Shown here one piece after another: positions 43,484-63,277 of a DNA stretch of 64,000 nucleotides. The number at the start of each line of letters is the position of its first letter. The stretch's first letter is position 1. The notes beneath the pieces are model-generated. The model saw only the letters and a program-made list of their open reading frames with translations, did not search any database and had not been told where the DNA came from. The stretch spans positions 60,431 to 124,430 of the forward strand of contig CAMCGB010000007.1 of NCBI GenBank assembly GCA_945874355.1. The letters are read 5' to 3'. The stretch is from an uncultured Bacteroides sp. (lineage in GTDB: Bacteria; Bacteroidota; Bacteroidia; Bacteroidales; UBA932). A program made the translations under genes and the position numbers.

Positions 43484-45660
43484 TCTTCAAATGATATTGC
43501 GAATCCGCCGCCCGGAGCCATCTTCACATTGATGCTGTCGGTGGAGGAAACAGTTTGTTCCGTAATCACATAAGCCTGAGGATTAGTCAGATAGTGTGCG
43601 TCCTCTGCGTCGGCGTAAATTCTGGCCTTGAACTGATGACCCTCGGGGAGGAAGTCCATCTTCAGGGTGAATTCCCTTGCGTTCTCGTCGGTCACACCTC
43701 CGCAGAACCACTGTCCGCTGCCCTTGGCTTTGCGCGCCACTATGATATAATCTCCGGGCTCTGCACAAAGATAGCGACTTTCCTGCCAATCTACAGCAAC
43801 ATCCTTGATAAATTGGAAGGCATCCATAAACTTGGAGTAGTGCTCAGGGGTGTCTGCGGCCATCTGCAGGGGCGAATACATAGTCAGATAGAGTCCGAGC
43901 TGGTTGGCTATGGTAGTGTTGACGTGAGAGTCGTTGCCGCACCACTCCTTGAGGTTCTGCTCGAAGATGCCCGGGGTGTAATCCATAGGGCCGCCGTTCA
44001 GACGGGTGAAGGGGAGGATGGTGGTGTGCTTGGGCTGTATGCCACCGAAAGCCTGATACTCAGTGCCCATTGCACTCTCATTGCCGATCAGGTTGGGGTA
44101 GGTCCTGCAAAGTCCTGTAGGCCTTACTGCCTCATGGGCGTTGACCATAATGTGATGGCGGGCGGCCTCGGTCACTGCATACATATAGTGGTTGACCATC
44201 CACTGGCCGTAGTGGTGCTCTCCGCGCGGCAGGATGTCACCCACATAACCGCTCTTGACGGCGTCGTAGCCGTAGCGGTTCATAAGCGAGTAGGCCTGCT
44301 CAAGGTGCCTTTCGTAGTTGCGCACGCTGCTCGAAGTCTCGTGGTGCATCACCAGAGTGATGCCCTTGGAGTGGGCGTAATCGTTCAGCGCGTCGATGTC
44401 GAAATCGGGGTAGGGAGTCACGAAGTCGAACACATAGTCCTTGCTGCAGTTGGCCCAGTCTTCCCAGCCGGTGTTCCATCCTTCGACCAGAAGGGCGTCG
44501 AAACCGTGCTCTGCGGCGAAATCTATGTACTTGCGCACATTCCCGTTGTTCGCGCTGTGTCTTCCGTTGGGAGTGGCCTTCGAGTAGTCGAAGTTGTCAA
44601 TCTTGACCGAAGGCACGTCGGTGTAAGCCCAGCTGCCCGCGCCGGCTATCATTTCCCACCACACACCCATATACTTGACGGGGTGGATCCAGCTCACGTC
44701 TTCCAGAGCGCAGGGCTCGTTGAGGTTCAGCACCAGACGGCTTGCGAGCTGCTCCTCGGCGCTGCGGGCCACTTGGACAGTTCTCCAGGGAGTGGTGCAG
44801 GGAGTCTGCATATAACCCTTCCAGCCTTGCGCGTCGGGGGTCAGGAAGGCCCTCAGGCTGTGCTTCTTGCCGTCCACCAGCAGATGCATGCAGGGATAGT
44901 CGAGCAGGGCGGCCTCGTGGATATTCACATAGTAGCCTTCGTCGCCCTTGAGCTGCAGGGAAGTCTGCACTCCGCTCGTGCTGAAAGGAGTCTGGGAGCT
45001 GTTGCCCCTCATATTGTTATGGAAATTCTTCTCTATTTCGCTCAGGCGGCACACTTCGTACTCATACTCCTGGGTGTCGAAATCGCCGGGAATCCACCAG
45101 GCGGTGTAGTCCGAAGCGAGAGCAAACTCGGTAAGCTCCTCCTTAATCACGAAATACACCAGGTCGCCGCCGGCGGGGAACTCGTAGCGGAGTCCCAGAC
45201 CGTCGTCAAAGAGGCGGAAACGTATGTCCATCAGCCTCGAGGTCCCCTTCTGCTGAAGGTGCACCAGCAGCTCGTTGTAGTGGTTGCGAATCGAAGCCTC
45301 CTCGCCCCATACGGGATTCCACACCTCGTCGAAAGAGCATGTGTCAACTCCGGTGAGGATGAAGTCGCGGTCGAAATCATAGCAGGGGCGGACATCGCTC
45401 TTGCTCACCGTGCCGTCCTTATAGTCAAGCTGTTCCGCCTTGACGGTGCCTCTGAGCTCAAAGCCCAGGCGGCTGTCGTTCAGAATCGGAGTCCCGTCGG
45501 CGCTGAGGCTGTAGAGAGCCACTCCGCGGGAGTCCAGCTTGAAGTTCATCTCCAGGGTGGAGTCGGGACTTTTCAGGGAGTACTGCTCCACAATCGTTGC
45601 TTTGGGTGCGCAGGAAAGGGCGCATACAAGAAGGGAAGAGAGTAAAATATATCTGTTCAT
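43474..45660 (-). CDS. susB: GH97 alpha-glucosidase, SusB-like
   Basis: Exo-acting enzyme releasing glucose from maltooligosaccharides (728 residues). The signal ends with lipobox VCALSC17. No acidic residues follow the Cys, suggesting a periplasmic-facing lipoprotein. It has a beta-sandwich N-domain, a barrel and a C-terminal beta-domain. Glu441 (MHHETSSS), Glu510 (NAHEAVRPTG) and Glu534 (GTEYQAF) align with SusB Glu439, Glu508 and Glu532. VKSGYVGD has Gly where retaining GH97 enzymes have a nucleophile Asp. Both facts point to the inverting, SusB type. Fifth of the downstream genes, 6 bases after the two-headed GH13. Confidence 0.92.
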   Translation of the reverse strand: MNRYILLSSLLVCALSCAPKATIVEQYSLKSPDSTLEMNFKLDSRGVALYSLSADGTPILNDSRLGFELRGTVKAEQLDYKDGTVSKSDVRPCYDFDRDFILTGVDTCSFDEVWNPVWGEEASIRNHYNELLVHLQQKGTSRLMDIRFRLFDDGLGLRYEFPAGGDLVYFVIKEELTEFALASDYTAWWIPGDFDTQEYEYEVCRLSEIEKNFHNNMRGNSSQTPFSTSGVQTSLQLKGDEGYYVNIHEAALLDYPCMHLLVDGKKHSLRAFLTPDAQGWKGYMQTPCTTPWRTVQVARSAEEQLASRLVLNLNEPCALEDVSWIHPVKYMGVWWEMIAGAGSWAYTDVPSVKIDNFDYSKATPNGRHSANNGNVRKYIDFAAEHGFDALLVEGWNTGWEDWANCSKDYVFDFVTPYPDFDIDALNDYAHSKGITLVMHHETSSSVRNYERHLEQAYSLMNRYGYDAVKSGYVGDILPRGEHHYGQWMVNHYMYAVTEAARHHIMVNAHEAVRPTGLCRTYPNLIGNESAMGTEYQAFGGIQPKHTTILPFTRLNGGPMDYTPGIFEQNLKEWCGNDSHVNTTIANQLGLYLTMYSPLQMAADTPEHYSKFMDAFQFIKDVAVDWQESRYLCAEPGDYIIVARKAKGSGQWFCGGVTDENAREFTLKMDFLPEGHQFKARIYADAEDAHYLTNPQAYVITEQTVSSTDSINVKMAPGGGFAISFEECR

Positions 45661-45666
45661 AGTCTT

Positions 45667-48639: not shown

Positions 48640-48640
48640 A

Positions 48641-50077
48641 TTATTTGCAGTATTTATTTATGCTTGATGTCTTGACCTGGAAGTAATTGTTGCCTCCAAG
48701 CTGCAGAAGGCGGTATTCGCCGTGATTGCCCCAGGAAGCGGGCTTGTCTTCGAGCTGGCAGTCTTCCCCCGTGTCGTTGTCGATATACTCCGAAATCAGT
48801 TTGTGCCAGTTCCTGATTCTTTCCATACTGGCGTCATAGTAGAAAAGCCTCTCCGAAGCAGAGCAGAGCTTCAGCAGCTCCTGTTTGTAGATGTCGCGGA
48901 ACTCGCTAATTTGCAATATCTTATAGATGAGAGGGTTCTTATTTGAGTCGCCCCAGTTCAGGGGGTCCTGCCTTCCGGCATCGCTCTGGGCCCCGCACTG
49001 GGCGCTGGTCCCGAGGGTGTTGTCGTAGTCGTAGGGCAGGAGATAGAACTTGTAGGAACTCTTTTCTGTGGAGTCGAAATAGATGTAGTAATTGTTGCAA
49101 TTGTTCCAGTAGTCGTCCCACATTCCGCAGGCCACATTCACGGCGTAGGTTTTCAGCAGCAGGGGCACATCGCAGTGAGCGCCGATCCAATTCTTGAAGT
49201 CATCTCCGGACTTTGAGCGCAGGTTGGTGATGAAGTCCAGCAGCTGGGCCTTTGCCCCGGCCAGGTCGTCAGTATTGGTTTTCAGCTCATAAGTATGCTC
49301 AACCCCGTCGTCAAGGTCGGCTCCTATGTCCGCTCCGGTGTCGTTCAGGGTGGCCCCGTAGCGGCACTTCCAGAGGTTGCCCGCGGTAGAGCTGAACTTG
49401 CTCTTGCGCTCCTTCAGGAAGTCGTTATCTATGGGCTCAATCATATCATAGACTCCGTAATAGGCCTCCTTGCTGTCCCCTTCGACATGAATGAACAGGC
49501 GGCAGTATGAAGCATAGGAAGCGGTCCATACCCCGGCCCTGCGGAAGAGGTCGTAGCAGTACAGCTCCCGTACGTACATAGGGTCGTCCTTAAACCATTT
49601 CAAGGCTATCTTCTTGATTCCCTTGATTTTATGTGCGTCGTCCTTTACGAACTTGCGCAGGTTCAGCTGGAAGTGGCAGTGATGCCAGTCGGTCTGGTCC
49701 TTCTTGTGCATCTGTCCGCCCGAGCCTTCGGGGCGCCTGCGGGAGGTGTTGCCTTTGAGCCTGATGCCGGCGTCGCTGATGTTGAACTCGTCCCCGCCCT
49801 TTATGAAGCGCACGTCACACTTGACCTGCTCGTCAGTATTGGGGTCGCGGTCGTATTTGCTCAGAAGAGAGTTCCATTCGCTCAGCTTGAAGCTCAGATG
49901 AATCTCTGGAAGTACCTCCAGATCATACACATACGCAGTGCCCTCTTTCTGCTCGATGTTTTCTCCTCCGCCTGTCTGAGAGTTGTCCGGAGTGTCGGGC
50001 GAAGAGCCTATCTTCTCGCAGGACAGCACAAACAAGAGGGAACAGAACACCAGAATAAGGGAAGAGAGCCGTCTCAT
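48641..50077 (-). CDS. CotH kinase family lipoprotein
   Basis: A 478-residue lipoprotein (lipobox FVLSC20 followed by EKIGSSPD) with a CotH domain. Recognisable parts are DAGIRLKGNTSRR near 115, FQLNLRKFVKDDAHKIKGIKKIALKW near 150-175, the helix MYVRELYCYDLFRRAGV near 180, YYGVYDMIEPIDNDFL near 225, and LLPYDYDNTLGTSAQ near 350, where CotH kinases carry the metal-binding Asp-x-Asp. Bacterial CotH proteins phosphorylate protein substrates in spores. In this family the targets are unknown. It is inside the starch operon with 5- and 1-base gaps on either side, so it is coexpressed with secreted amylases. The substrate is not predictable from sequence. Confidence 0.85.
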   Translation of the reverse strand: MRRLSSLILVFCSLLFVLSCEKIGSSPDTPDNSQTGGGENIEQKEGTAYVYDLEVLPEIHLSFKLSEWNSLLSKYDRDPNTDEQVKCDVRFIKGGDEFNISDAGIRLKGNTSRRRPEGSGGQMHKKDQTDWHHCHFQLNLRKFVKDDAHKIKGIKKIALKWFKDDPMYVRELYCYDLFRRAGVWTASYASYCRLFIHVEGDSKEAYYGVYDMIEPIDNDFLKERKSKFSSTAGNLWKCRYGATLNDTGADIGADLDDGVEHTYELKTNTDDLAGAKAQLLDFITNLRSKSGDDFKNWIGAHCDVPLLLKTYAVNVACGMWDDYWNNCNNYYIYFDSTEKSSYKFYLLPYDYDNTLGTSAQCGAQSDAGRQDPLNWGDSNKNPLIYKILQISEFRDIYKQELLKLCSASERLFYYDASMERIRNWHKLISEYIDNDTGEDCQLEDKPASWGNHGEYRLLQLGGNNYFQVKTSSINKYCK

Positions 50078-50082
50078 AAGTA

Positions 50083-52644
50083 TTATTGTCTAATGAATAT
50101 CTTCCACTCTGCGGCGCCCATCTCAAGGCTGGCTGAGCTGCCGGTATAGCTCTCCTTCGAGTCCAGATAGTTGGTCCAGGTGCCGTCTGAAGGGAAGCTG
50201 ACGCTGATGCTTGAAGCCGAAGTGCCGAAGTTTCCAACCAGCATGAAGCTCTTTCCTGAGGAAGTGATGCTGATGGTCCTTCCTGCCGCCCAGTTGGCAG
50301 AGCCTATCTTCAAAGACACGCTGGCGTCCTTGGTGAAGAATTCGGGATTGTCCTTCCTGAACTTCAGAAGGGTGCGGTAGTCGTCGTGCAGGGCCTTGCG
50401 CTCGCTCACTTCCAGATACTCCCAGTGCAGAGGCTTGCGTCCTGTCCTTCCGCCGGTCTCAATGCTCTCGTCGTAGCCCAGCTCCTGGAACTGCCAGAGC
50501 ATCTTCGGTCCGGGAACGCAGAGCAGGAAGGCGGCGCACAGAGACTCTCTCTGCATTCTGGCCTTAAGACTGCCCTTTACGGAAGCGTCCCCGTAAGTGA
50601 GTGATTTATAAGCGCTGCGCTCCTCGTCGTGGCTCTCGGAAAAGCCTACCAGTGAGCCGAAAGGCATACTAGTGCCTGTCCACAGGCCGCCGAAGTCGCT
50701 GCCCGAAGACACTCCCATTGCCGCCTGGCAGAAAGCGTAGTTGAGATTTCTCCACACCTTCATCCCGTCCTGGGCCAGAGCATTCTCCTCCTTTGTCTCG
50801 CAGAAGTGCTCGAGTATCACTACGGCATCGGGATTGACCTTTTTGATGGCCGAATTGTAGTCCTTGAGGATGTCAACCCTGCTCTGGTCGTAAGACGAAG
50901 CGTTGCTTTCGTCGCACTTGCGGTTGCTGAATCCCTTGGTAAGGTCGAAGCGGAAACCGTCCACTTTGTATTCCGTCAGAAGATACTCCAGGCTCTCCTT
51001 CACGTGGGCGCGTACAACAGCGTTCTCGTGGTTCCAGTCATGGAACACGTTGTAGGGATGGGGTGCCTCCACGTTGAAGAACGGGTTGTTGGAGGCGGTC
51101 CTGTTGGCCGAAGCGTCCCAGTACATCTTGGCGTAAGGATGGGCTCCGGTGGCCTGATTGTAAACCACATCCACCAGCACACCTATGCCTCTGGAGTGGC
51201 ACTCGTCGATGAACTGCTTGTACTTGTCAGAAAAGCCGTAGGCCTTGTCGAGGGCAAAGTATGAGCAAGGGTTATAGCCCCAGGAGTCGTTGCCGTCGAA
51301 CTCCTGGATGGGCATCAGTTCAATCGCCCCTACGCCCAGGTCGCTCAGATAGTCAAGCTTTTCAAGAGCGCCGTTCAGGTCAGAACTTGAAGAGAAATCC
51401 CTCAAGTGAAGCTCATATATTATTAGGTCATCTTGGTCTTTTATCTTGAAATCCGTGTTCTTCCACTGATACTCCTCGCCGCCGTAGCAGAATGCGCCCA
51501 CAAGCCCGCTTGTGCCCTCAGGATAGCTCCTGAGACCGGGATAGGTGGAAGAAGAGATGTATTTGTCGTTTGAAGAGTCGTACACTATGGTGGTGTACGG
51601 GTCGTGAATCTTTACAGAGCTGTCGCCCTTTCCGAGATAGTACTGGAACAGGTACTCCCTGCCTTTCTCGACAGAAGGGATGGTGTACCACCATACTCCC
51701 AGCTGCTCGTCGCGCTTCATTGCGTACTCCTTTGTGCGCTTGAAGCCGTTGAAATCGCCTATCAGATAGCACCAGTCGTGCCTTTCGCCCTTGGTGTCCT
51801 TGTCGTAAAGCACCAGGGTCACGCTGCCGTCGGCGTTGTAGTTGATGCCCTTCTTTACACCCGCAGGTGCGCTTTCCACCACCACGGGGTCGGGCTCGAA
51901 GCTGTTCTTGCTGTCATTGACCTTGATGAAAAGGTCTTCTGTCTGGGTCTTTCCGTCGGCGCTGCGTACCACAACGCCAATCTTGTTCACGGGCGTGTCG
52001 CCCGAAGCGAAGTATTCTCTTATGGTAGGTTTAAGTTCAAGCTTCCAGAGGTTTTTTTCCTCCATTTCCGTCCAGCGGCATTTGTCGATATTGGTGTTCC
52101 AATCTGCCTGGACATACATCCACTCAGTCTCCACGATTCCGATGTGGGCATAAATGGCCTGGGTATAGCCGTAGAAAGGAGTCCCCTGGGCGGCACGGTA
52201 GTAGAGTGTGCAGCTCTGGTCGGCATCCGGGGTCTCTTCGAGTGTGAACAGCCCCGTCTTGCCCGGCCCGATGACCTCGTTCACCGGCTCCTGGGAGACG
52301 TTTACCGTAACTTTAAGGCAGCCCGGAGCCGAAAACTCCAGCTTTCCGCTGCGTGCATTTGCCCCGCACTCTGTTGCGCTGATCCTCACTTCTCCTCCAG
52401 GAGCAGTTCCGCTCTCGGGCGAAATGGTGAACCAGTCGCCTTCCTTGATGACCGCCTTCCAACTTTCGGCATTGGTGGTCACGGTTATGGTTTGGCTTGA
52501 TGCTCCCTTGGCGAATACTACTTCGCGCGGCTCAATCTTCAGCTGTTTTGCGCCCTGGTTGGGGTCCTGCTCCTTGCAGGATACAGCCATAAGTCCGAGA
52601 CTTACAAGAGCGATGCTCAGAATGCGTACAAATACTTTTCTCAT
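50083..52644 (-). CDS. BACON-domain GH13 alpha-amylase/pullulanase, SusG-like role
   Basis: An 853-residue lipoprotein (lipobox MAVSC23 followed by KEQD; acidic residues near the Cys favour surface export). A BACON domain (about 33-120, TTNAESW..., SPESGTAPGG) is followed by a beta-rich linker domain (about 125-245) and an isoamylase-type N-domain (about 260-370, WCYLIGDFNGFK). The GH13 barrel (about 400-760) has nucleophile Asp567 in GFRFDLTKG, acid/base Glu612 in VILEHF and Asp673 in SHDEE. A C-terminal beta-domain ends it. The N-domain and WGYNP stretch suggest branched or surface starch as substrate. It is the first enzyme gene behind an intra-operon hairpin. Confidence 0.92.
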   Translation of the reverse strand: MRKVFVRILSIALVSLGLMAVSCKEQDPNQGAKQLKIEPREVVFAKGASSQTITVTTNAESWKAVIKEGDWFTISPESGTAPGGEVRISATECGANARSGKLEFSAPGCLKVTVNVSQEPVNEVIGPGKTGLFTLEETPDADQSCTLYYRAAQGTPFYGYTQAIYAHIGIVETEWMYVQADWNTNIDKCRWTEMEEKNLWKLELKPTIREYFASGDTPVNKIGVVVRSADGKTQTEDLFIKVNDSKNSFEPDPVVVESAPAGVKKGINYNADGSVTLVLYDKDTKGERHDWCYLIGDFNGFKRTKEYAMKRDEQLGVWWYTIPSVEKGREYLFQYYLGKGDSSVKIHDPYTTIVYDSSNDKYISSSTYPGLRSYPEGTSGLVGAFCYGGEEYQWKNTDFKIKDQDDLIIYELHLRDFSSSSDLNGALEKLDYLSDLGVGAIELMPIQEFDGNDSWGYNPCSYFALDKAYGFSDKYKQFIDECHSRGIGVLVDVVYNQATGAHPYAKMYWDASANRTASNNPFFNVEAPHPYNVFHDWNHENAVVRAHVKESLEYLLTEYKVDGFRFDLTKGFSNRKCDESNASSYDQSRVDILKDYNSAIKKVNPDAVVILEHFCETKEENALAQDGMKVWRNLNYAFCQAAMGVSSGSDFGGLWTGTSMPFGSLVGFSESHDEERSAYKSLTYGDASVKGSLKARMQRESLCAAFLLCVPGPKMLWQFQELGYDESIETGGRTGRKPLHWEYLEVSERKALHDDYRTLLKFRKDNPEFFTKDASVSLKIGSANWAAGRTISITSSGKSFMLVGNFGTSASSISVSFPSDGTWTNYLDSKESYTGSSASLEMGAAEWKIFIRQ

Positions 52645-52662
52645 TACGGTACTATAAATTAT

Positions 52663-52700
52663 AAAACAGGCTGGCTAAAGCAAGATAGCCAGCCTGTTTT
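52663..52700 (-). terminator. Strong hairpin inside the starch operon
   Basis: A perfect 15-bp stem AAAACAGGCTGGCTA / TAGCCAGCCTGTTTT with an 8-base loop stands in the 64-base gap between the SusE/F-like gene and the BACON-GH13 gene. On the minus strand it ends in TTTT. It should reduce transcription into the enzyme genes and protect the 3-prime end of the binding-protein mRNA. Confidence 0.8.
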
Positions 52701-52708
52701 CAGACTTG

Positions 52709-55105
52709 TTATTGAAGAGTTGCAGTTCCTGCGTTGAAGTCAAGCACAACGGTCTGGCCGGCGCCGGCATTTACTCTCTGCTGGTCGTCACCAGTTCCTC
52801 TGTACTCGATCTTTCCGTCCAGGAAGATGAACTCGCGGGTCCACCAGTCTGAAGTGGCCCTGCCTGAAGCAGCGTACATACGGAGTTCTCCGTCTGCTAC
52901 GAGCGTACACTTCAGGGTCCTGCCGTCTGCGGTGAACAGAGCATTCTCCATTCCCTCATCCCAGCCTCCGAAGCAAGAACCTATTCCGTAGATACGGGCG
53001 GGTTCGACATGGAGGATGTTGTTCTTGAGGTCGATGTGAATCATATAGATTCCGTCCTGTTCAACTGTGCAGTTGCCTCCGGCGATGGTATATCCCTCGT
53101 TGGTCTCAAGGCCGCTGAATTCCTGTCCGTTCCAAGCCTTTGCGGGGCAGAACTTGAAGCCCTTTCCGGCAGATAAGTACCTTACCGTCCAGAACTGACC
53201 GGGAGCTTTGTCTCCGCTGTTGTGAACGGGAACGAGAGAAACTACATCGCTGCTGCTCCAGTCCCAGTTACCGAACTCATCTCCTGTCATATAGAGATTG
53301 TCGGGGAATGCTACAGCATTGATCGTCACTTCTTTAGTCTCAGAGTTGAAGCTTACCTTGTAGTTGCCCTTTTCGGCTACGGTAATGTCTGCTCCGGGCT
53401 GACTGGCTACGAAAGGAGCGCCTATGGTGGGAACGAATCCTGCTTCGGGGGCGCCGTAGCAGTCCTCATCTGCCCAAGAATAGTTGTAACGGATTTTGAA
53501 TCCACCCTCGATCGATACGGTAGGGCTGGTCCATACATTTCCGTTCTGGCTCATCAGCACATCCAACTTCCAAGAGTCTCCGTTAATCATACCGATTAGA
53601 GAGAAAGCCTTAACGTGCTTTTCCACAACAAGAGTCTTGGCTGCATAGTCCAGGGTGATGTCGTACTCGCCTGTCTCAGGAATCTGGATATTGGTTCCTT
53701 TCAATTCGAACTTGACTCCCAGTTCGGGCTTGTAAACGCCATAAGGGTTGCTTGCATCGATGGTTGACTCGGAGTTGGCTTCGGGACCACCGTAATTCTC
53801 ATTGGCCCAGTCGTGGCCGGCGATGATCTTGAATTCATCTCCCTCTGCTAAACTTACTGAGCGGACTACCCAGGTGTCGCCAACCAGGTTGGAAAGGTCG
53901 TAAGCCTCGTCGGCAGCGTTCCAGCTGTTGAAGTTTCCTGCAAGGCTCCAGGCGGTAGGCTTAACGGGCTCGGGAGCTTTCTCGGGAAGACCGGGCTCCG
54001 GCTGACCGTACATAGAGGCACTTATCTGATACTCCATCTTATTGACATCGAAGTAGATACGGTATTGTCCGGCAGCGAGGGGAATATCATTTCCTCCCTT
54101 CTCGAGACCCTTTCCGTTATCACCCCAGTTGGTGTCCCAGCCTCCATTCAGACGGAACTTGAATGCAGTCGATTGCTCTGAGACAACGTCTGCATAGAAG
54201 CGGTTGTAGCCGGGGTTGTAATCCATAACTACGTCGTTGTTCCAGTCGCCGTTTAAGCCGATCAAGCCCATCTGGTTGAAACTGAATTCCTTGGTGAGGG
54301 TGAGGTTGCTCTTGTCGAAAGTGAACATATAGAACCTGTCGCTGTAGCACTTGATGTCCCCGCTACCGCCGTCGTCAATAAGGCTTATGCTGCTTGCCTC
54401 TGCTCCGGGTGCTGCAGCTTCCTTGTTGAGTCCCCAGTTTCCGTTGTTCCAGTCGGCAGCTCCGGTAAGCTTGAATCCATCGGCAGCTTTATCGCCGAAG
54501 TCAATGATACCGCTGTAGGTGTTGCCGTCCTTTGTGTAGTTGAACAGGAACTGAATGGTAGGATCTGTAAAGCCCCAGTTGCAGTAGGTTCCGATCACAT
54601 AGATATACTTGTAGGTGTCCTTGTCGGAAACGAGCATATCGTAAGGCACGAACACACCTGAAGCAATGTTGGAACTGAGTTCGGTGTTGCTGATGGCAGT
54701 GTTCTGATCGTTGGACATATCAGAGTGCAGACGGAAATAAACGGTGCACTCCTGGTCGGGAACTCCTCCCTCGTTGAGGATATAGGAGTTGAGGCTCTTC
54801 TGAGTCATTGTGGCTTTGCCGTCGCTGATGGTAGCGGCCATAACCTCGGCCTTCTCGAAGTCGGAAGTGACTGAAGCATAGAGAGTGTAGCGAACTGCGC
54901 AGCTGATTCCGTAGTCTGCCTTGCCGAAATCGATGACTATGTCTTCTCCGTCGGGAGAGAGGCTCACAGCTGCAATGTCGCTCAAAGTGGGGGCAGTCGT
55001 GTTGGCAGGGTCATAGATTGCCATGGGAGCTCTCTGGTCAACGCAGCCGGCTGCAAGAAAAGCTGCTGCGAGAAGACCCAGACCGCCTTTGATTATCTTA
55101 TTCAT
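52709..55105 (-). CDS. SusE/SusF-like starch-binding lipoprotein with about six tandem modules
   Basis: A 798-residue outer-membrane lipoprotein (lipobox LAAGC21). An N-terminal SusE-type Ig-like domain (about 35-155) is followed by repeated modules that each start with a short strand and a W-containing loop: about 165-272 (YVIGTYCNWGF), 277-363 (GLIGLNGDWNN), 384-495 (SLAGNFNSWN), 498-598 (SLIGMINGDSW), 602-702 (YMTGDEFGNWDW) and 704-798 (YGIGSCFGGWD). Most also have a second aromatic cluster such as KLTGAADWNNGNWG or IIAGHDWANENYGG. SusE has two such starch-binding modules and SusF three, so this protein is larger than either. It follows susD by 21 bases. Confidence 0.88.
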   Translation of the reverse strand: MNKIIKGGLGLLAAAFLAAGCVDQRAPMAIYDPANTTAPTLSDIAAVSLSPDGEDIVIDFGKADYGISCAVRYTLYASVTSDFEKAEVMAATISDGKATMTQKSLNSYILNEGGVPDQECTVYFRLHSDMSNDQNTAISNTELSSNIASGVFVPYDMLVSDKDTYKYIYVIGTYCNWGFTDPTIQFLFNYTKDGNTYSGIIDFGDKAADGFKLTGAADWNNGNWGLNKEAAAPGAEASSISLIDDGGSGDIKCYSDRFYMFTFDKSNLTLTKEFSFNQMGLIGLNGDWNNDVVMDYNPGYNRFYADVVSEQSTAFKFRLNGGWDTNWGDNGKGLEKGGNDIPLAAGQYRIYFDVNKMEYQISASMYGQPEPGLPEKAPEPVKPTAWSLAGNFNSWNAADEAYDLSNLVGDTWVVRSVSLAEGDEFKIIAGHDWANENYGGPEANSESTIDASNPYGVYKPELGVKFELKGTNIQIPETGEYDITLDYAAKTLVVEKHVKAFSLIGMINGDSWKLDVLMSQNGNVWTSPTVSIEGGFKIRYNYSWADEDCYGAPEAGFVPTIGAPFVASQPGADITVAEKGNYKVSFNSETKEVTINAVAFPDNLYMTGDEFGNWDWSSSDVVSLVPVHNSGDKAPGQFWTVRYLSAGKGFKFCPAKAWNGQEFSGLETNEGYTIAGGNCTVEQDGIYMIHIDLKNNILHVEPARIYGIGSCFGGWDEGMENALFTADGRTLKCTLVADGELRMYAASGRATSDWWTREFIFLDGKIEYRGTGDDQQRVNAGAGQTVVLDFNAGTATLQ

Positions 55106-55126
55106 AACTGATTCTGTTTAAGAACT

Positions 55127-56812
55127 TTATTTGGATGATTCATATCCGGGGTTCTGATCGAGCTTCTTGTTTACGCTCAAGTCGCTTGCCACCAGAGGAT
55201 AAATCTTGAGATGATCTGAAAGCTGGGCATTTCCGCTCTCCACGCCTCCCTTGTAAACCCAGGGGAATTCTGAAGAGGTGAACTTGCCGTAACGGATGAG
55301 GTCAACTCTGCGGTGACCCTCCCACATAAACTCGCGGGCCCTCTCTTCGAGAATCCAGTCTGTGGTGATGATTGCGGGAGTGGTGGCGGAAACGCCGGCG
55401 CGATCGCGCAGGGTCTTAATGTAACCCTTTGCAAGACCGTCAGTTACGGTGCCGTTATTCAAGCGAGCATCTGCCTCGGCGTAGTTGAGGTACATCTCGG
55501 CGAGACGGAAAACGGGCATATCGGCGGATGAAAGCTTAAAGTTGCCTGCGGCGCTCTCTTCCTGAGCGAAGGTGTCGTCGTGGTTCAGGCCGTTCCATTT
55601 CCAGCAGAGCCATCCGGTGCTCTGATCTGAAGGGCTGAATGCCTCTGCACATCCGATGTTTGTAAAGAAAGCTCTCTTGTCGGAGGTCTCGCGGTTGTAA
55701 CCGAATGCGTTATCTCCGTTATCCCACTCGACTTCCTGAAGGTCGAAATACTTCACATAGTCAGCGGGAACATGGTAGCCGGCCCAGTTCTCACCATTGA
55801 TCTTGGTTAATCCGAAGGTGGCTCCGATAGCAAGGTTGGCTTTCTCGCTCAGAGCGGCGCTGGTAAGGGTAGTGGTGCCTCCCCAGCTCTGGGTGCTGAC
55901 CCTGTCGTAGGCTATTGCAAATACGAACTCATCCTCGGCGGCTCCGCTCTCGGTATTGTCCTGACGGAACAGGTCTGAGTACGGAGTGTGGATAGAGTAA
56001 CCCATATCGATTACCTTCTTGGAAGCGATCTTGCAGTCCTGCCACCTTGCGGTTCCGGTATAAACCTCGGCATTCAGGTACATACGGCTCAGAAGGGCCC
56101 ATACGCTGCCTTTGGTAGGCCTGGGATAAGGAACGGCACCCTTCTCGGGCATTGCGCTGCTTTCGCTTGCGAGGTCAAGAAGCTCAGTCTCAAGCCAATC
56201 GAAAAGATCAGCTCTCTTGATCTGATCGGGGTTCTCTCCACCGATGTTCTCGGGCATGGGGAAGGGAGGGTTGCCGAACTCATCCATCAGCACATAGAAG
56301 AACATAGCCCTGTGGAAACGGGCCTCTGCCCTGTAGCCGGCGATGGTGGGAAGCAGGCTCTCCTGTCCGCGGGCGATAACCCTCTCGTCTTCTGTCTGGA
56401 GCAGATACTCGTTGACAAGGGCGATGGCCTTCACGGCGCGGGTGTAAACTGCAACGCAGGCATCGTTGCTCGAAGACCAGGAGTTGTTCTGGAGTTCAGA
56501 GAGATATGAGTCGCCCCAGCTACACTTGAGGGCGTCGCAGCTCATCTCGTTGAGGTTGATCCACTGTCTGAAGAACTCTGACTGACCCGCATCGGAGAAT
56601 CCCAGGTCGTTGCTTCCGGCTTCGTCCTGGCCGACAAGCATATAGTAGCCGTTGATATAGGCAAGGGCGTTGAGGTAGCTGGACTCGTTCTCGTAGGCGT
56701 TGTCGGCCGTGAAGTCGGTTTCATTCAGAGGCTTGGTGTTCAGGTCTCCAAGGCAGGAGCAGAACAACAGGGCGCTAGAAATGGCCAGTATGATTTTGTT
56801 TGCAATTTTCAT
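55127..56812 (-). CDS. susD: SusD/RagB family starch-binding lipoprotein
   Basis: A 561-residue surface lipoprotein (lipobox LLFCSC20) that caps the SusC channel and binds maltooligosaccharides through TPR helices. Signatures are NALAYINGYYMLVGQDEAG near 46, YRAEARFHRAMFFYVLMDEFGNPPF near 160, DWLETELLDLASES near 208, PTKGSVWALLSRMYLNAEVYTG near 230, RLAEMYLNYAEADARLNNG near 445, and RAREFMWEGHRRVDLIRYGKF near 495-515. It lies 19 bases behind susC as expected for the pair. Confidence 0.94.
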   Translation of the reverse strand: MKIANKIILAISSALLFCSCLGDLNTKPLNETDFTADNAYENESSYLNALAYINGYYMLVGQDEAGSNDLGFSDAGQSEFFRQWINLNEMSCDALKCSWGDSYLSELQNNSWSSSNDACVAVYTRAVKAIALVNEYLLQTEDERVIARGQESLLPTIAGYRAEARFHRAMFFYVLMDEFGNPPFPMPENIGGENPDQIKRADLFDWLETELLDLASESSAMPEKGAVPYPRPTKGSVWALLSRMYLNAEVYTGTARWQDCKIASKKVIDMGYSIHTPYSDLFRQDNTESGAAEDEFVFAIAYDRVSTQSWGGTTTLTSAALSEKANLAIGATFGLTKINGENWAGYHVPADYVKYFDLQEVEWDNGDNAFGYNRETSDKRAFFTNIGCAEAFSPSDQSTGWLCWKWNGLNHDDTFAQEESAAGNFKLSSADMPVFRLAEMYLNYAEADARLNNGTVTDGLAKGYIKTLRDRAGVSATTPAIITTDWILEERAREFMWEGHRRVDLIRYGKFTSSEFPWVYKGGVESGNAQLSDHLKIYPLVASDLSVNKKLDQNPGYESSK

Positions 56813-56831
56813 TTTTTGTTCCTCCTCTGTT

Positions 56832-59822
56832 TTAGAAAGTTATGTTGAGTCGGAGAGTATAAAGACGAGGACGGGGATAGATTTCAGTATCTACGCCGTC
56901 GCCTTCGGAAATCTCAGGATCGAGTCCGGAGTACTTGGTGAAGGTGCATACGTTCTGTACAGAACCTGCTACGCGGATCTTGAGATTGTTCTTCAGATCG
57001 AAGGTATATCCGAGGTTGATGTCGTCGATCTTCACGAATGAACCGTCTTCGATCCAGACGTCAGAGAACTTCTGAGCCTCGGTGTTGGCAGCGGTCCAGC
57101 CGGGCAGGAGCCAGGTAGCGGACAGGTTGCCGATATAGCCCTTAGTGTAGTCGTCGCTGTAAGAAGTGGCATAACCGCTGGCAGTCTTGTTGATGAACTC
57201 TGCTCCGAGTGAGCCGTGTCCGTTCAGACCGAAGTCCCATCTCTTGTAGCGGATCTGGGTGTTGAATCCGAAGTATCCCCAAGGGGTAGGGCTGCAGCCG
57301 GTCATATAGCGGTCGTCGGCGTTGATCTTACCGTCGTTGTTGCGGTCCACGAGGGCATTCTGTATAGGATTGCCTTCCTTGTCGTAAACCTGCTGGTACA
57401 GATAATAAGTATAAGGAGCGTAGCCGGCCTTGTGCAGGGCGGTAAATCCTACGTTGCTACCCATAGACTTACCTACCTCGACTCCCTTGAAGTCCTCGTC
57501 GCTGTTGGTAAGTTTGGTGATCTTTACGTCCTGGAAGGTGAAGTTTCCGCCGATCTCCCAGTTCCAGTCTCTTGTCTGGACGGGGATGAAGTTGGCAGAA
57601 AGCTCTATACCCTTGTTCACCATACTTCCGATGTTCGAGGTCAACTCCTTGCCGAAGTTCGATCCGAGAGGAATGGAAATCTTGTTCAGCAGATCGAAGG
57701 TGTTGCGGTAGTAAGCCTCGACGCTACCGCTGATGCGGTCGTTCAGGAAGCCGAAGTCCACACCGACGTTGTAGGTCTCGGTGGTCTCCCATTTGATGTT
57801 GGGGTTGTATGCCAGAGGCGACAGCACGTTGAAAGAACCGTTCTCTCCGCTGAGCATAGGGTACTTCATGGTGATTGAAGGGCTCTGGTAGTAGCGGGCG
57901 AGGTAAGGATAGTAGTCGTCGCCGATATCCTGCTGTCCTGTACGACCCCAACCCAGACGGAGCTTGAGGGCAGATACTGTCTCGACTTCCTCCATCCACT
58001 CTTCATTGGCGATGTTCCATGCGAAGGCGGCTGAAGGGAAGAATCCCCAGCGGTTTGCCTTGCTGAAACGGCTTGAAGCGTCACCGCGGGCGGTGAAGGT
58101 GAACAGATAGCGGGAGTCGTAGTTGTAGTTGAATCTTCCGAAGAAGGAGATCAGGTAGTACTCTCTTGAGTTGTTGGGAGCGATGTTGTACTCTTTTTCG
58201 CGGTCGTTGTTATAGTACTGCGAATTGTCGTAGCTCACGAAGTTGTGCTGCCATGAGTAACCTGCCATTGCGTTCACATTGTGCTTTCCGAATGTTTCGT
58301 TGTAGTCCAGATAAGCCTCGAGCAGGGTATTCTTGTTGAAGTTCTCGTACAGCTCATAGAGGTCAGGGGTGCTGCGCAGAGATCCGATTGAACCGGGAGT
58401 GTTGTACTTGGTTCCGTTGGTCTTTGCCATATCCAGACCAAGGTTGATGTTTGCCCTCAAAGCCTCGAATCCGTGTACCTTATAGTCGAGCTGGAGGTTA
58501 CCCACAGCGCGGTAAGTGCTGCCATAGTTGACGTAGTCGTAGGTAGAGGAGAGAGGGTTCACGCTTGCCATAGTGTTGGCGCTTCCTGCGGTCATCCAGT
58601 TCCAATAGCCGTTGCTGATCTGAGACTTGTCGATATTGCCCTCAGCGTCAGTGAAATACACGGGCTTGGTAGGATCGAAGGTAAGGGCGCTGCCCACAGG
58701 GTTGTTGGCCCAATTGGTCTTCTGATATACTCCCTTTGCGTTCAGGTTTACGCTCAGGTGGTCGTCCAGGAACTTGGGAGACATGCTGATGTCGATGTTT
58801 CCTCTCTGGTTGTCACCCACCTTGATGGTAGCCTGGTCGAGGTTGTAGCCCACGCTCACGCGGAAGGGGAGCCTGCCGCCCGAGTAGAGGCTGATATTGT
58901 GGTCGGTATTGATACCTACACGGTATACAAGGCTCTGCCAATCAGTGTTATACAGAGTTCCGTCAACTCCCAGCAGGTGAGCCGATTCAGGACGGTACTC
59001 CTGGATGTATGCGGCGAAAGTCTCTCCGTCCATCATCTTGATGGTGTCCTTGTTCTGCTTTGCGGATACGCTTCCGCTGTAGCTGACGTGCAAACCCTTG
59101 CCCTGGCCCTTCTTGGTGGTGATGATGATCACACCGTTGGATGCCCTGGAACCGTAGATGGCGGTTGCGGAAGCGTCCTTGAGCACGGAGTAGGACTCGA
59201 TGTCGTTGGGGTTGACGGTAGCCAGAGGATCACCCATTCCGGCACCACCTTCCTTGGTCACAGGCACACCGTCGATGACGATGAGAGGGTCGTTGGAAGC
59301 GGTAAGGGAAGCGGCTCCTCTGATTCGGATGGTTGAAGATGCGCCTGGCTGGCCGTTCGCGGGAGTGATGTTAAGACCGGAAACCTTTCCAAGGAGCATT
59401 GAGCTCGGGGAGGTGACGGCTCCACGGTTGACGTCTTCTGCGCGAATTGAAGTCACGGCGCCGGTCATATCACTTTTCTTCACGGTACCGTAACCGATTA
59501 CCACGCTCTCTTCGAGCATTTTGCTGTCTTCTGACAGGGTAATCGACGCAGGCATCTGTGAAGCCGTGAATGTCTGGCTGGTATATCCGATGCAGCTGAC
59601 TTCGACGACAGCGTCTTTCGAAGATACCTTGAGGCTGAAATTACCGTCCAGGTCGGTGGAGACACCATTGCTGGTGCCGGCTTCCATCACGGTGGCCCCG
59701 ATTACGGGTCCGTACTGGTCGATAATCACACCCTTTACTTCATATCCGCTTTGGGCGGACAGATTAGCGGAAACCGCCATTGAGACGATTATTCCAGCTA
59801 AAAGAGTAAGGATTTTTTTCAT
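56832..59822 (-). CDS. susC: SusC family TonB-dependent outer-membrane transporter
   Basis: A 996-residue transporter with signal peptide (ending SANLSAQ), a carboxypeptidase-like regulatory domain (about 26-105, VKGVIIDQYGPVIGATV, STDLDGNFSLKV), a plug with VVIGYGTVKKSDMTGAV near 107-123 (TonB-box-like entry to the plug) and RIRGAASLTASNDPLIVIDGVPV near 165. A 22-strand barrel is predicted, ending LRLNITF. It has no N-terminal STN domain, so it is not expected to signal to an anti-sigma factor. It sits 18 bases behind the MFS gene and uses TonB. Confidence 0.95.
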   Translation of the reverse strand: MKKILTLLAGIIVSMAVSANLSAQSGYEVKGVIIDQYGPVIGATVMEAGTSNGVSTDLDGNFSLKVSSKDAVVEVSCIGYTSQTFTASQMPASITLSEDSKMLEESVVIGYGTVKKSDMTGAVTSIRAEDVNRGAVTSPSSMLLGKVSGLNITPANGQPGASSTIRIRGAASLTASNDPLIVIDGVPVTKEGGAGMGDPLATVNPNDIESYSVLKDASATAIYGSRASNGVIIITTKKGQGKGLHVSYSGSVSAKQNKDTIKMMDGETFAAYIQEYRPESAHLLGVDGTLYNTDWQSLVYRVGINTDHNISLYSGGRLPFRVSVGYNLDQATIKVGDNQRGNIDISMSPKFLDDHLSVNLNAKGVYQKTNWANNPVGSALTFDPTKPVYFTDAEGNIDKSQISNGYWNWMTAGSANTMASVNPLSSTYDYVNYGSTYRAVGNLQLDYKVHGFEALRANINLGLDMAKTNGTKYNTPGSIGSLRSTPDLYELYENFNKNTLLEAYLDYNETFGKHNVNAMAGYSWQHNFVSYDNSQYYNNDREKEYNIAPNNSREYYLISFFGRFNYNYDSRYLFTFTARGDASSRFSKANRWGFFPSAAFAWNIANEEWMEEVETVSALKLRLGWGRTGQQDIGDDYYPYLARYYQSPSITMKYPMLSGENGSFNVLSPLAYNPNIKWETTETYNVGVDFGFLNDRISGSVEAYYRNTFDLLNKISIPLGSNFGKELTSNIGSMVNKGIELSANFIPVQTRDWNWEIGGNFTFQDVKITKLTNSDEDFKGVEVGKSMGSNVGFTALHKAGYAPYTYYLYQQVYDKEGNPIQNALVDRNNDGKINADDRYMTGCSPTPWGYFGFNTQIRYKRWDFGLNGHGSLGAEFINKTASGYATSYSDDYTKGYIGNLSATWLLPGWTAANTEAQKFSDVWIEDGSFVKIDDINLGYTFDLKNNLKIRVAGSVQNVCTFTKYSGLDPEISEGDGVDTEIYPRPRLYTLRLNITF

Positions 59823-59840: not shown

Positions 59841-61193
59841 TTACTTATTTGTCGTTTTGTGTTCTTTGACAAGGCTAACGGCGGCACAGCCGCACAGAAG
59901 AAGCACCCCGGCAACTGCAAGCATAGCGGCCTGGGACTGGCCCACCAGGCGGAGAACAAAGCCTCCCACCGCGGCGGCCACAATCTGGGGCAGACAGATG
60001 GTGCAGTTGAAAAGACCGAGATAGCTGCCCATATGCTCGCCTGACAGGGAATTGGTCAGGAGAGTGAAAGGCAGCGCGAGCATTGCCGCCCAGGCTGCTC
60101 CGATAAGGAAGAACGAGCCCAGCAGCAGATATTGATTATGGATAAACAGGACTGAGATGAACCCTGCGGCCCCGATTACGAGGCTTACCACATAGGAGAG
60201 TTTGAGGGACTTGAATTTCGGGATGACCAGGGCCCAGAGTATCGAGCCTACGGCCTGGACGGCGAACAGGACTCCCACCCAGTTGCCTGCGGCCTGATAT
60301 CCCTCGCTTGCGGGGTCAGTGGTGCCCCAGCAGTTGGAGGCTACGGCGCCGTTGGTATAGGTCCACATATACATAAAGGCGGCCCAGCAGAAAAACTGCA
60401 CCAGTCCCACGGTCCAGAAAGTCTTCGGCGCGTGGACAAGAAGCTTCAGCAGCCCGGGCTCATTTTTCTTCTCTTCTTCCTGCTTTTTGAGGTCGATGCC
60501 GTGGAAGGCTGCATACTCCTTCGGAGGCATCTCCTTGACTTTCATAAAGGTATAGAGGACGCAGAGGATCAGGATGGCTGCTCCGCAGTAGAAACTCCAT
60601 ACCACAGAAGGGGGAATTACACCCTTGGGGGCAGTGTTTGCAATGCCTATCCAGGTGAAGAAGATGGGGAAGAGGTAGCCCACAAGGGAGCCGGCGTTGC
60701 AGAGCAGGCTCTGGATGGAATAAGCCTGGGCCTTCTGCTTTTCGCTGACCATATCGCCGACCATCATCTTAAAGGGCTGCATGGCCACGTTGATGGAGGT
60801 GTCGAGGAAAATCAGGGAGAAGAGGCCGAACCACATCGCTCCGTTGAGCCCGAGCATCAGGCGGGACGAGAAGTTGAGGCTTCCGGCGTTGGGAAGGAAG
60901 GCCATCACGATGACAGCCACCAGGGCTCCCACCAGAAGGTAGGGCTTGCGTCTGCCCATACGGCACCAGGTCCTGTCAGACCATTTGCCGATTAGAGGCT
61001 GGACTATCATACCCATAAGGGGCGGAAGTATCCAGAAGAAACTGAGCTGATGGGGATCGGCTCCAAGGGTTGCGAATATTCGGCTGATATTTGCGCTCTG
61101 CAGGGCGTAGGCAATCTGGACTCCGAAAAAGCCGAAGCTCAGGTTCCACATCTGCGCGAATGACAGTGGTTTTTGCTTGTTTTCCGTTTGCAT
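59841..61193 (-). CDS. MFS transporter, likely inner-membrane maltose/oligosaccharide symporter
   Basis: A 450-residue permease with about twelve membrane segments and no cleavable signal. Family-like motifs are WNLSFGFFGVQIAYALQSANISRIF near 13-37, the RMGRRKPYLLVGALVA loop near 75, GQPFKMMVGDMV-like MQPFKMMVGDMVSEKQKAQAYS near 135-155, and NSLSGEHMGSYLGLFNC near 385. It resembles the sugar:cation symporters found beside starch loci in Bacteroidetes. The substrate is inferred from context. It is the first gene of the starch operon; a LytTR-type repeat and a -7-like box lie upstream. Confidence 0.88.
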   Translation of the reverse strand: MQTENKQKPLSFAQMWNLSFGFFGVQIAYALQSANISRIFATLGADPHQLSFFWILPPLMGMIVQPLIGKWSDRTWCRMGRRKPYLLVGALVAVIVMAFLPNAGSLNFSSRLMLGLNGAMWFGLFSLIFLDTSINVAMQPFKMMVGDMVSEKQKAQAYSIQSLLCNAGSLVGYLFPIFFTWIGIANTAPKGVIPPSVVWSFYCGAAILILCVLYTFMKVKEMPPKEYAAFHGIDLKKQEEEKKNEPGLLKLLVHAPKTFWTVGLVQFFCWAAFMYMWTYTNGAVASNCWGTTDPASEGYQAAGNWVGVLFAVQAVGSILWALVIPKFKSLKLSYVVSLVIGAAGFISVLFIHNQYLLLGSFFLIGAAWAAMLALPFTLLTNSLSGEHMGSYLGLFNCTICLPQIVAAAVGGFVLRLVGQSQAAMLAVAGVLLLCGCAAVSLVKEHKTTNK

Positions 61194-61220: not shown

Positions 61221-61228
61221 CAAATTAA
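61221..61228 (-). promoter_or_regulatory. Possible -7 box of the starch operon
   Basis: TTAATTTG on the minus strand (61228 to 61221) differs from TAnnTTTG at one base and lies 28 bases before the MFS start. A weak TTTT-type -33 is about 19 bases upstream. It lies some 30-70 bases from the 61260-61293 repeats, a plausible distance for activation. Confidence 0.35.
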
Positions 61229-61259
61229 GCCATTGTTACATATTTATAAAACGGAGTTC

Positions 61260-61293
61260 GGATGAATGGTTGATTTTTTAGGATGAACGGTTG
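61260..61293. promoter_or_regulatory. 13-bp direct repeats with 21-bp period, candidate LytTR operator
   Basis: GGATGAATGGTTG (61260-61272) and GGATGAACGGTTG (61281-61293) differ at one base and are exactly two helical turns apart, each followed by A/T-rich ATTTT. LytTR regulators bind direct repeats of about 9-10 bp with this kind of spacing, with a GTT core as here. They stand between the divergent MFS/starch operon and the lytS-lytTR pair. Direct evidence is the repeat; binding by the neighbouring regulator is inference. Confidence 0.6.
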
Positions 61294-61331
61294 GATTTTG
61301 AAGAAATATTATTATATTCACATTGGATTTT

Positions 61332-62477
61332 ATGAATATTTCAAAAAATAGTTGGATAATCCACGGGTTTGCCCTGATGCACGCCGCTGTCTCCCTGGCC
61401 TGTAAGGCTGCGGGGATTGCGGATGATTTGATGCTGACCCTGCTGTCGATGGTCCTGGTTGTCATTCTATGCCTCAGGCTCAAAACCGGCGAACTGTTTA
61501 TGTATCTGTCGGCAGTACTGGTCAATATCATAGGTTTTGCTCTCGGAATGGGCTTTGCCTCCCTGTTCTCCCTCCTGCCGTTAAGACCTCTTTCCGTCCA
61601 TCCTCTTTCCACCTTCCTCTGTACGGAAATAATCGGCTGGATTACCGTTTTAGCCGCCGGCGTCTATAACCGCCACCATACCGGCCGTCAGACGGGAAGC
61701 CTTTCGCCCAAGAGCCTGCGCTGGCTGCTTGTCGCCTTCGTCACCATTATAATATGCCGCCTGTCCATCATCCTTCTCACATCTGAAGGTTCACTCCCTC
61801 GCAGCTTTTTCATAGAGATTATTCTGGATTACACTTTCAGCTGTCTTGTTCTCGTGGGCATAGCGGAGATTGCAATCAAGGCCAGAATCCAAAGCGAGAA
61901 GGCCACCCAGGAGTCCAATCTGTCGCGCTATCGCTACCTTATGCTCAAGCAGCAGGTCAATCCGCACTTTTTGTTCAATTCGCTGAATGTGCTTGATTGT
62001 CTGATACTTGACAATTCCACTGAGCAGGCTAGCGAGTACACCCACCGGCTCGCAGAGATATATCGCTATATGCTCCGTTACGAAGGCGAGAGCCTGGTAC
62101 ACTTGCGGGATGAACTCTCTCTTGTGGAAGATTATGTTAGCCTTCTGAAGGTGCGCTTTACCGAAGGGTTGGAGGTCAACATAGACATCCCGGAAGAGAA
62201 GATGAGCTGCAGCATTGTACCCTGCGCGCTTCAGCTGCTGATAGAGAACGCCACCAAGCACAATATGGTCAGCGCCGCCTCTCCCCTCAAGATTGATGTG
62301 TATATCAAGGACAATAACATTATAGTAACCAATAATATCCAGCCCCGACTTTCGGAAACCGGCTCTACAGGCTTGGGCCTCAAGTATTTGCGTCAGCAGT
62401 ATGCGGATTTGGGAGGCAGCCCGATACAGGCCGGTTCCGAAGGAGGGTGTTACACTGTAATTCTGCCACTCTTATGA
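61332..62477 (+). CDS. LytS-type sensor histidine kinase
   Basis: A 381-residue membrane kinase. I start it at the ATG at 61332; the longer track frame begins with TTG. Membrane segments lie at about 8-25, 35-49, 56-78, 95-112, 128-150 and 160-182, without a large extracellular sensor domain. The His_kinase domain has the phosphoacceptor His212 in LKQQVNPHFLFNSLNVLD and the N-box ENATKHNMV near 305. A short ATP lid GSTGLGLKYLRQQY is near 347. It overlaps its LytTR partner by a few bases. It stands divergent from the starch operon. Confidence 0.92.
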   Translation: MNISKNSWIIHGFALMHAAVSLACKAAGIADDLMLTLLSMVLVVILCLRLKTGELFMYLSAVLVNIIGFALGMGFASLFSLLPLRPLSVHPLSTFLCTEIIGWITVLAAGVYNRHHTGRQTGSLSPKSLRWLLVAFVTIIICRLSIILLTSEGSLPRSFFIEIILDYTFSCLVLVGIAEIAIKARIQSEKATQESNLSRYRYLMLKQQVNPHFLFNSLNVLDCLILDNSTEQASEYTHRLAEIYRYMLRYEGESLVHLRDELSLVEDYVSLLKVRFTEGLEVNIDIPEEKMSCSIVPCALQLLIENATKHNMVSAASPLKIDVYIKDNNIIVTNNIQPRLSETGSTGLGLKYLRQQYADLGGSPIQAGSEGGCYTVILPLL

Positions 62478-63277
62478 TGAAAGCGCTGATTGTTGAGGAT
62501 GAGTCTATGGCCAGAATGAGGTTGGTCAAGATTCTGGAAGCCTCGTTTCCCAATGTGGAGGTGGTAGCCCAGACCGATTCCATTACCGGGACTTTGGATT
62601 ATCTGCGTCGCAGCGGTGATCCTGACATAATATTTATGGACGTGGAACTCTCGGACGGGGATTGTTTCGAGGTCTTCCGTCAGAGGGACGTGCGTTCTAA
62701 AGTGATAATGACCACGGCATACGATTCCTATGCCCTCAAGGCTTTTGAGGCCGGCAGTATAGACTATCTTCTTAAGCCTGTGAGTGTGAGCGCTTTGCAG
62801 AGGGCTTTGGGGCGCTGTGAGACTGCTGTTGCGGCTGCTGGTTCTGCTGTTGGTTCTGCTGACGGTGGTTCTGCCGGTTCTGCTGCTGAAAATAGCACCG
62901 ATGCTGGCCGCATTATGGCTTCGGTGAGCGGCGCGAAGAAGTGGAAGAAGCGTATGCTCGTCAGGGTGGGGGAGCAGTATGTCCCGCTGGAGCTCGCTTC
63001 GATTGCCTGCTTCCTGTCTGAAGACAAGTGCAATTATGTTTATATGACCTCGGGAGGGCGTTATCTGCTTGACCTGACGATGGATAAGATTTGCGAGGGA
63101 CTGGACCCTGAGTCGTTTTTCCGCGTCTCCAGGGGCTGTATCGTGCGTCGGGAGGCGGTGAAGACTGTCCTGCGTCATCTGAACGGCAGGTTGAAGCTCG
63201 AGCTGAGTGTGCGCACTCCGGAAGAGCTGTTTGTGTCGCGCTCCAGGGTTGACGATTTTCTCTCCTGGTTGGAATAG
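62474..63277 (+). CDS. LytTR-family response regulator
   Basis: Partner regulator (about 267 residues). The start is one of two adjacent ATG codons at 62474/62477, overlapping the kinase stop, so translation is coupled. The receiver domain (1-115) has IVEDESMARMRL, phosphoacceptor Asp55 in IIFMDVELSDGD, TTAYDSYALKAFEAGSIDYLLKPV with conserved Thr and Lys. An Ala/Ser/Gly linker (about 120-148) encoded by repeated GGTTCTGCT units follows. The LytTR DNA-binding domain (about 158-265) has IACFLSEDKCNYVYMTSGGRYLLDLTMDKI and FFRVSRGCIVRREAVKTV. It probably binds the repeats at 61260-61293. Confidence 0.92.
   Translation: MMKALIVEDESMARMRLVKILEASFPNVEVVAQTDSITGTLDYLRRSGDPDIIFMDVELSDGDCFEVFRQRDVRSKVIMTTAYDSYALKAFEAGSIDYLLKPVSVSALQRALGRCETAVAAAGSAVGSADGGSAGSAAENSTDAGRIMASVSGAKKWKKRMLVRVGEQYVPLELASIACFLSEDKCNYVYMTSGGRYLLDLTMDKICEGLDPESFFRVSRGCIVRREAVKTVLRHLNGRLKLELSVRTPEELFVSRSRVDDFLSWLE
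62826..62893 (+). repeat. Degenerate GGTTCTGCT repeats in the LytTR-gene linker
   Basis: The stretch gttgcggctgctggttctgc then tgttggttctgctgacggtg, ggttctgccggttctgctgct holds at least four GGTTCTGC(T/C) units and encodes an Ala/Gly/Ser-rich linker between receiver and DNA-binding domains. It is unlike the rest of the gene in base and codon use. Confidence 0.7.

Follow-up and report, generated by a model that had tools for sequence, protein, structure and literature searches.

Two direct repeats between a starch utilization operon and a kinase-regulator gene pair very probably form a LytTR operator, at which the adjacent response regulator would bind and activate the operon, a reading drawn from sequence comparison across related genomes. 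The repeats lie in the window, by which we mean the whole 64,000-nucleotide stretch of DNA analyzed here, between two divergent units: the minus-strand MFS-susC operon, from 61193, and a kinase gene and a LytTR regulator gene on the plus strand, from about 61332. This divergent arrangement had been proposed in a sequence-only reading of the DNA and was confirmed. The repeats, as read from the window, and the genes around them are as follows:

61260-61272: repeat 1, GGATGAATGGTTG
61281-61293: repeat 2, GGATGAACGGTTG
59841..61193, minus strand: MFS sugar transporter, which opens the starch operon and is the predicted target
43474..59822, minus strand: rest of the starch operon, comprising
56832-59822, minus strand: susC (Pfam)
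55127-56812, minus strand: susD (Pfam)
52709-55105, minus strand: susE/F-like (Pfam)
50083-52644, minus strand: first GH13 (Pfam)
48641-50077, minus strand: CotH (Pfam)
45667-48639, minus strand: second GH13 (named from reading of the translation only)
43474-45660, minus strand: GH97-like (named from reading of the translation only)
61332..62477, plus strand: six-TM histidine kinase, His_kinase PF06580, earlier called lytS
62474..63277, plus strand: response regulator, receiver and LytTR DNA-binding domain, predicted binder

Two of these genes have features of their own. The 990-aa GH13 protein (45667-48639) seemingly holds two GH13 units in one chain, the halves of which match separate stretches about 140 bp apart in a related locus (L130), as if they were separate genes there. 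The CotH-kinase-like gene (48641-50077), placed within the starch operon, recurs in the starch loci of several relatives.

The repeats are rare in shuffled sequence and occur once in the genome

The repeats agree exactly with their first description, being 13 bp long, identical at 12 of 13 positions (one mismatch) and set at a period of 21 bp; their likeness reaches 21 nt at 81% identity. Chance does not readily produce such a pair in shuffles: 13-mers with at most one mismatch at a spacing of 21 were found in 0.06% of dinucleotide shuffles of the 138-bp intergenic region (P ~0.0006), rising to 1.7% when every spacing between 13 and 60 is allowed. The sequence-only reading had suggested looking for the same pair across the genome and at orthologous loci. 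The orthologous intergenic regions show conservation, as described below. In the window's own genome (2.06 Mb, 33 contigs) the pair is present once, even allowing up to 3 mismatches. Likewise, the degenerate pair GAYGAAYKG-N12-GAYGAAYKG matched this genome exactly once, and at two mismatches it gave 7 matches compared with 12 for the reversed control, which gives no basis for claiming a wider regulon here.

The repeat pair is conserved upstream of the transporter gene

Scanning the 151 genomes of the genus with the window pair (up to 3 mismatches) gave matches in nine genomes, eight of them located about 1.2-1.4 kb upstream of an orthologue of the LytTR gene, and none with the reversed control. 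For comparison we took 60 LytTR loci of relatives, most of which retain the divergent order of kinase-regulator and MFS-susC, with a regulator that is mostly only 40-55% identical to that of the window. Pairs of the shorter motif GAYGAR in 51 intergenic regions are spaced by 21 bp in 63 cases and by 42 bp in 23, no other spacing being found more than three times; three copies occur in many relatives, and two in the window and those closest to it. The sequence-only reading had staked its proposal on conservation in orthologous intergenic regions, and this is what we found: 92 of 99 distinct regions upstream of the MFS gene hold 2 or 3 GAYGAR copies in the 21-bp register, against 0.15 expected from dinucleotide shuffles and 0 in the reversed control, the loci being related so that these counts are not independent events. 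In several of the other seven regions the first copy is degenerate.

A chance origin, or a simple-sequence repeat, could appeal to the shuffles in which two-copy 13-mers reached 1.7% over all spacings. It now deserves practically no credence, since the conservation extends over more than 90 loci despite the divergence of their regulators, and the excess over shuffled upstream regions already refutes it.

With the exact pattern, the same 151 genomes yielded 53 sites, and its reversed form only 2. Roughly nine of these 53 were dropped because they fall inside coding frames, and the non-coding ones lie mostly beside starch genes. Beyond the genus, most of what a family-wide scan returned was coding sequence or simple repeats; a single further genus (g12: L236, L237) had a convincing site. 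One contig in the comparison, titled as a Clostridia MAG (L165), carries a Bacteroidales starch locus (MFS 92%, LytTR 54% identity); its label is probably a binning error in the public record.

The half-sites resemble those of known LytTR operators

Position-wise conservation in relatives delimits two half-sites inside the repeats:

61262..61270, minus strand: operator half-site 1, promoter-proximal, ACCATTCAT, inside repeat 61260-61272
61283..61291, minus strand: operator half-site 2, distal, ACCGTTCAT, inside repeat 61281-61293, separated from half-site 1 by 12 bp

On the minus strand the operator thus reads ACCGTTCAT (61291-61283), 12 bp, ACCATTCAT (61270-61262), and points at the starch operon. 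A GTT core, GGTTG, had been suggested at first; this has to be revised, as the invariant part of the anchored profiles of relatives is instead G-A-Y-G-A-A-Y-K-G, which on the minus strand gives the LytTR-like half-site ACCRTTCAT. The textbook LytTR consensus is [TA][AC][CA]GTTN[AG][TG], which ACCGTTCAT fits fully and ACCATTCAT with one departure. In architecture, too, the site has the marks of its class: where LytTR operators consist of two direct repeats of about 9 bp with a 10-13 bp spacer, the arrangement here is 9-12-9 bp; ACCGTTCA and ACCATTCA, on the minus strand, conform to a half-site like ACC-R-Y-T-Y-A; the predicted promoter lies at the usual distance, with about 10 bp between the operator and the target's -35/-33; and a cognate LytTR gene is nearby and co-occurs. 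Comparable sites are the YehT oligonucleotide, ACCGCTTA / ACCACTCA with period 21 (PMC4847170), and those of the Streptococcus mutans LRS, which include ACCACTTAT-12 bp-ACCGCTTAT (PMC6193735). The operator itself would be a further LytTR-type site, and the grounds for interest are the regulon and the domain-loss series described below.

Predicted promoter geometry points to activation of the starch operon

TAnnTTTG is the Bacteroidetes -7 element, and boxes of this type allow promoters to be predicted on both sides of the operator:

61248..61251, minus strand: TTTT, predicted as the -33 element for the starch operon; it lies downstream of half-site 1 with 10 bp between them, and the same offset is T-rich across 104 relatives
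61221..61228, minus strand: TTAATTTG (TAnnTTTG type), predicted as the -7 element for the starch operon, with 19 bp between it and the -33 element
61313..61320, plus strand: possible lytS -7 element TATATTCA, whose -33 (about 61290-61293) would overlap half-site 2

On the MFS side, 59 of 104 loci have a TAnnTTTG-like box at a distance of 32 +/- 1 from the proximal repeat, compared with about 0.75 expected. This kind of box is listed for Bacteroides, and LytTR promoters are reported to have a 12-bp spacer with a strong bias toward a position 10 bp upstream of -35 (PMC6193735). With its -33 and -7 elements as predicted, the operator would have the geometry of known LytTR-activated promoters. Repression, with bound LytTR protein covering the -35 as in CoxC and the kinase signal relieving it, has a precedent in the repressing three-repeat LytTR operators (CoxC, PMC11347149). 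We regard it as quite unlikely here, given that the CoxC repeats overlap the -35 and that here 10 bp, a placement typical of activators, separate the end of the proximal half-site from the predicted -33 downstream of it.

The sequence-only reading had also raised autoregulation, and an operator serving mainly the lytS-lytTR pair, with or without the starch operon, would suit a site placed between divergent genes and would correspond to a defining trait of LRS systems (PMC6193735). Moreover, the window shares with three near relatives a TATNTTCA box at a fixed 31 bp from half-site 2, which would put the lytS -33 over that half-site, so that a side effect on lytS is possible. As a main role, however, autoregulation finds no support and appears unlikely: the possible lytS -7 box keeps its offset in those few closest relatives in which it can be read and is not conserved further out, and distances on the lytS side are scattered in the wider set, none dominating like the fixed one on the MFS side. 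The half-sites point toward MFS, and one genome (G135, locus L148) has the operator at MFS-susC without an adjoining regulator. In L236 and L237, from another genus of the family, and in L272, the kinase and regulator are co-directional with MFS, and the repeats lie between regulator and MFS. Since these three loci keep the repeats directly before MFS with lytS elsewhere, the operator goes with the transporter operon.

The site follows the LytTR neighbor

The MFS gene was detected in 104 of the 151 genomes of the genus, and 40 MFS loci, the majority taken from genomes lacking a strong LytTR match, were added to examine the dependence on the regulator. By position-weight score, the site is present in 113 of 117 loci with a LytTR neighbor compared with 6 of 20 without (Fisher p = 2e-11). 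The other four loci with a LytTR neighbor fall below threshold, and in several loci the first copy is degenerate; where the LytTR neighbor is more distant the pair, or a degenerate form of it, is found in most loci. The six site-positive loci without LytTR comprise one cut by a contig end (L138), three short fragments (L238, L240, L261), one with a threshold-level score (L271) and L148, an orphan site at MFS-susC, whose genome encodes LytTR proteins elsewhere. Among well-covered loci without a LytTR neighbor, this leaves 1 of 15 that clearly has the site. Among the 40 added loci, the strict pair is absent from those without a LytTR or kinase neighbor, including 11 where susC follows MFS. The MFS-susC loci L265, L268, L273, L275, L283, L284, L287, L293 and L296, all of the same genus, have neither a LytTR neighbor nor the repeats.

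Because the motifs of Bacteroides SusR-like and HTCS regulators are likewise direct repeats (PMC3878776), one of these or another regulator might bind here, the LytTR neighbor being incidental. This seems very improbable: the spacing of predicted SusR repeats is 67 or 77 bp (PMC3878776), as opposed to 21 bp here, the site follows the LytTR gene, and LytTR is the sole domain common to the two-component, fused and solo neighbors described below. The first proposal, a LytTR operator serving the starch locus, is borne out as far as conservation upstream of MFS and co-occurrence with the regulator gene can indicate.

A LytS-like kinase and its response regulator

The adjacent regulator had been called a LytTR protein, and the gene product of 62474..63277 indeed has a receiver and, at about residues 150-267, a LytTR domain, forming a two-component pair with the PF06580 kinase. 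The name lytS for the latter is loose: the kinase has PF06580, and 5TMR-LYT is not among the Pfam matches listed for 29 kinase orthologues at E up to 1, a search in which the HMMER filters drop most weak matches. With no 5TMR-LYT detected, the kinase is LytS-like and not LytS proper as PMC10653868 defines it. Its AlphaFold model (mean pLDDT 82, pTM 0.51) has a kinase core preceded by N-terminal helices that fit six membrane spans; a fold search with the model gave kinase-type matches among those listed. For the receiver domain, and for it only, phmmer against the PDB gave matches among those listed. The signal may be a maltodextrin-related cue, a guess that we base on the predicted targets.

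Predicted additional targets are alpha-glucan genes

Copies of the operator precede other genes in relatives. Together with a TAnnTTTG-like box at 31-32 bp, it is found before a pullulanase gene (L130:5107-7071, L135:5119-7071) and before a GH77 4-alpha-glucanotransferase gene (L155:5097-7535, L156:2497-4935, L157:5097-7532), and a GH13 gene follows it in L143:2182-4932, where no such box was recognized. Because these are alpha-glucan genes, they support a starch/maltodextrin regulon. Intergenic pairs before a TauE-type exporter (L139), a DUF3575 protein (L151) and an unknown protein (L154) were not counted as support; they represent either chance or other LytTR targets.

Reduced regulators at the same operator

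At eight loci the neighbor is not a two-component pair but a fused or solo LytTR protein:

L279:3264-4385, L282:3397-4335, L288:3455-4390, L297:3111-4046, L132:4015-4956, L145:2956-3897: TM-LytTR fusions
L291:3652-4350: shorter TM-LytTR fusion, 233 aa
L134:5122-5469: lone LytTR protein, 116 aa

In the first six, a single protein of 312-374 aa aligns to the membrane part of the kinase and continues into a LytTR domain, with no kinase or receiver matches. All eight loci have the 21-bp repeat pair before MFS, and the occurrence of fusions and of a lone LytTR protein at the same operator therefore points to the LytTR domain as the probable binder. In a tree of LytTR domains, built from few columns and with long branches, the fused forms fall into at least two separate supported groups among the two-component forms, and L134 and L291 are placed apart from these groups. 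TM-LytTR proteins as such are already known in Bacteroides (PMC6193735). What we favor, with some reservation, is that one genus has repeatedly reduced the switch at one starch operator from a two-component pair to six-TM or shorter TM-LytTR fusions and to bare LytTR, a natural conversion into a one-component switch that leaves the target site in place.

Discussion

In the model that we propose, two response-regulator subunits would bind the two half-sites, set two helical turns apart, from the same face of the DNA, and would sit just upstream of the -33 of the MFS-susCDE-amylase promoter. The six-TM kinase would signal some alpha-glucan-related cue, upon which the regulator would activate the starch operon. 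Such an operator suggests how a large group of uncultured gut bacteria turns on starch use, and, being defined, opens the model to testing by means of a short DNA probe and a single protein domain. The series of domain losses would be a natural experiment in simplifying a two-component switch while its DNA site stays.

Described regulators of Bacteroides PULs are of the SusR-like, hybrid two-component and ECF sigma types (PMC3878776). Our literature search, with most subscription papers outside its reach, brought up no paper in which a starch locus of Bacteroidota is controlled by LytTR; the present case would add a starch regulon under LytTR control, its operator defined, from a gut/rumen genus that is large and mostly uncultured. 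It shares with SusR/HTCS control that starch or glycan operons stand under direct repeats, and differs from SusR in regulator family and, at 21 bp, in repeat spacing (PMC3878776), which places it outside the SusR regulon.

AgrA pairs are centered near -60 (PMC4227749), as at agr P2/P3, compared with a predicted center at about -58 here if the -7 box is right; unlike here, the target is quorum sensing and the sensor is another one. Closer are the LRS and the Bacteroides "LRS-like" operons (PMC6193735), with 9-bp repeats, a 12-bp spacer, a position about 10 bp upstream of -35/-33, half-sites like ACC[AG]CTTAT that resemble those of the window, and TM-LytTR proteins in Bacteroides. The LRS-like repeats of B. 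thetaiotaomicron, in contrast, are 11 bp with an 11-bp spacer, unlike the 9-12-9 of the window (PMC6193735). An LRS is autoregulatory and kinase-free, with a membrane inhibitor (PMC6193735), whereas the window has a kinase and a receiver, with the operator at the target operon, and so is not an LRS; the fused and solo forms of relatives are kinase-free and in that point like LRS.

The BtsS/BtsR (YehU/YehT)-btsT and YpdA/YpdB-yhjX systems of E. coli likewise combine a membrane kinase with a LytTR response regulator, act on a target that is, or begins with, a transporter gene, and use direct repeats of period 21, the half-site being ACCRCTYA there and ACCRTTCA here. Unlike in these systems, the kinase of the window has six predicted TM helices with 5TMR-LYT not detected, relatives of the window often have three half-sites, and the predicted target is a whole starch utilization operon.
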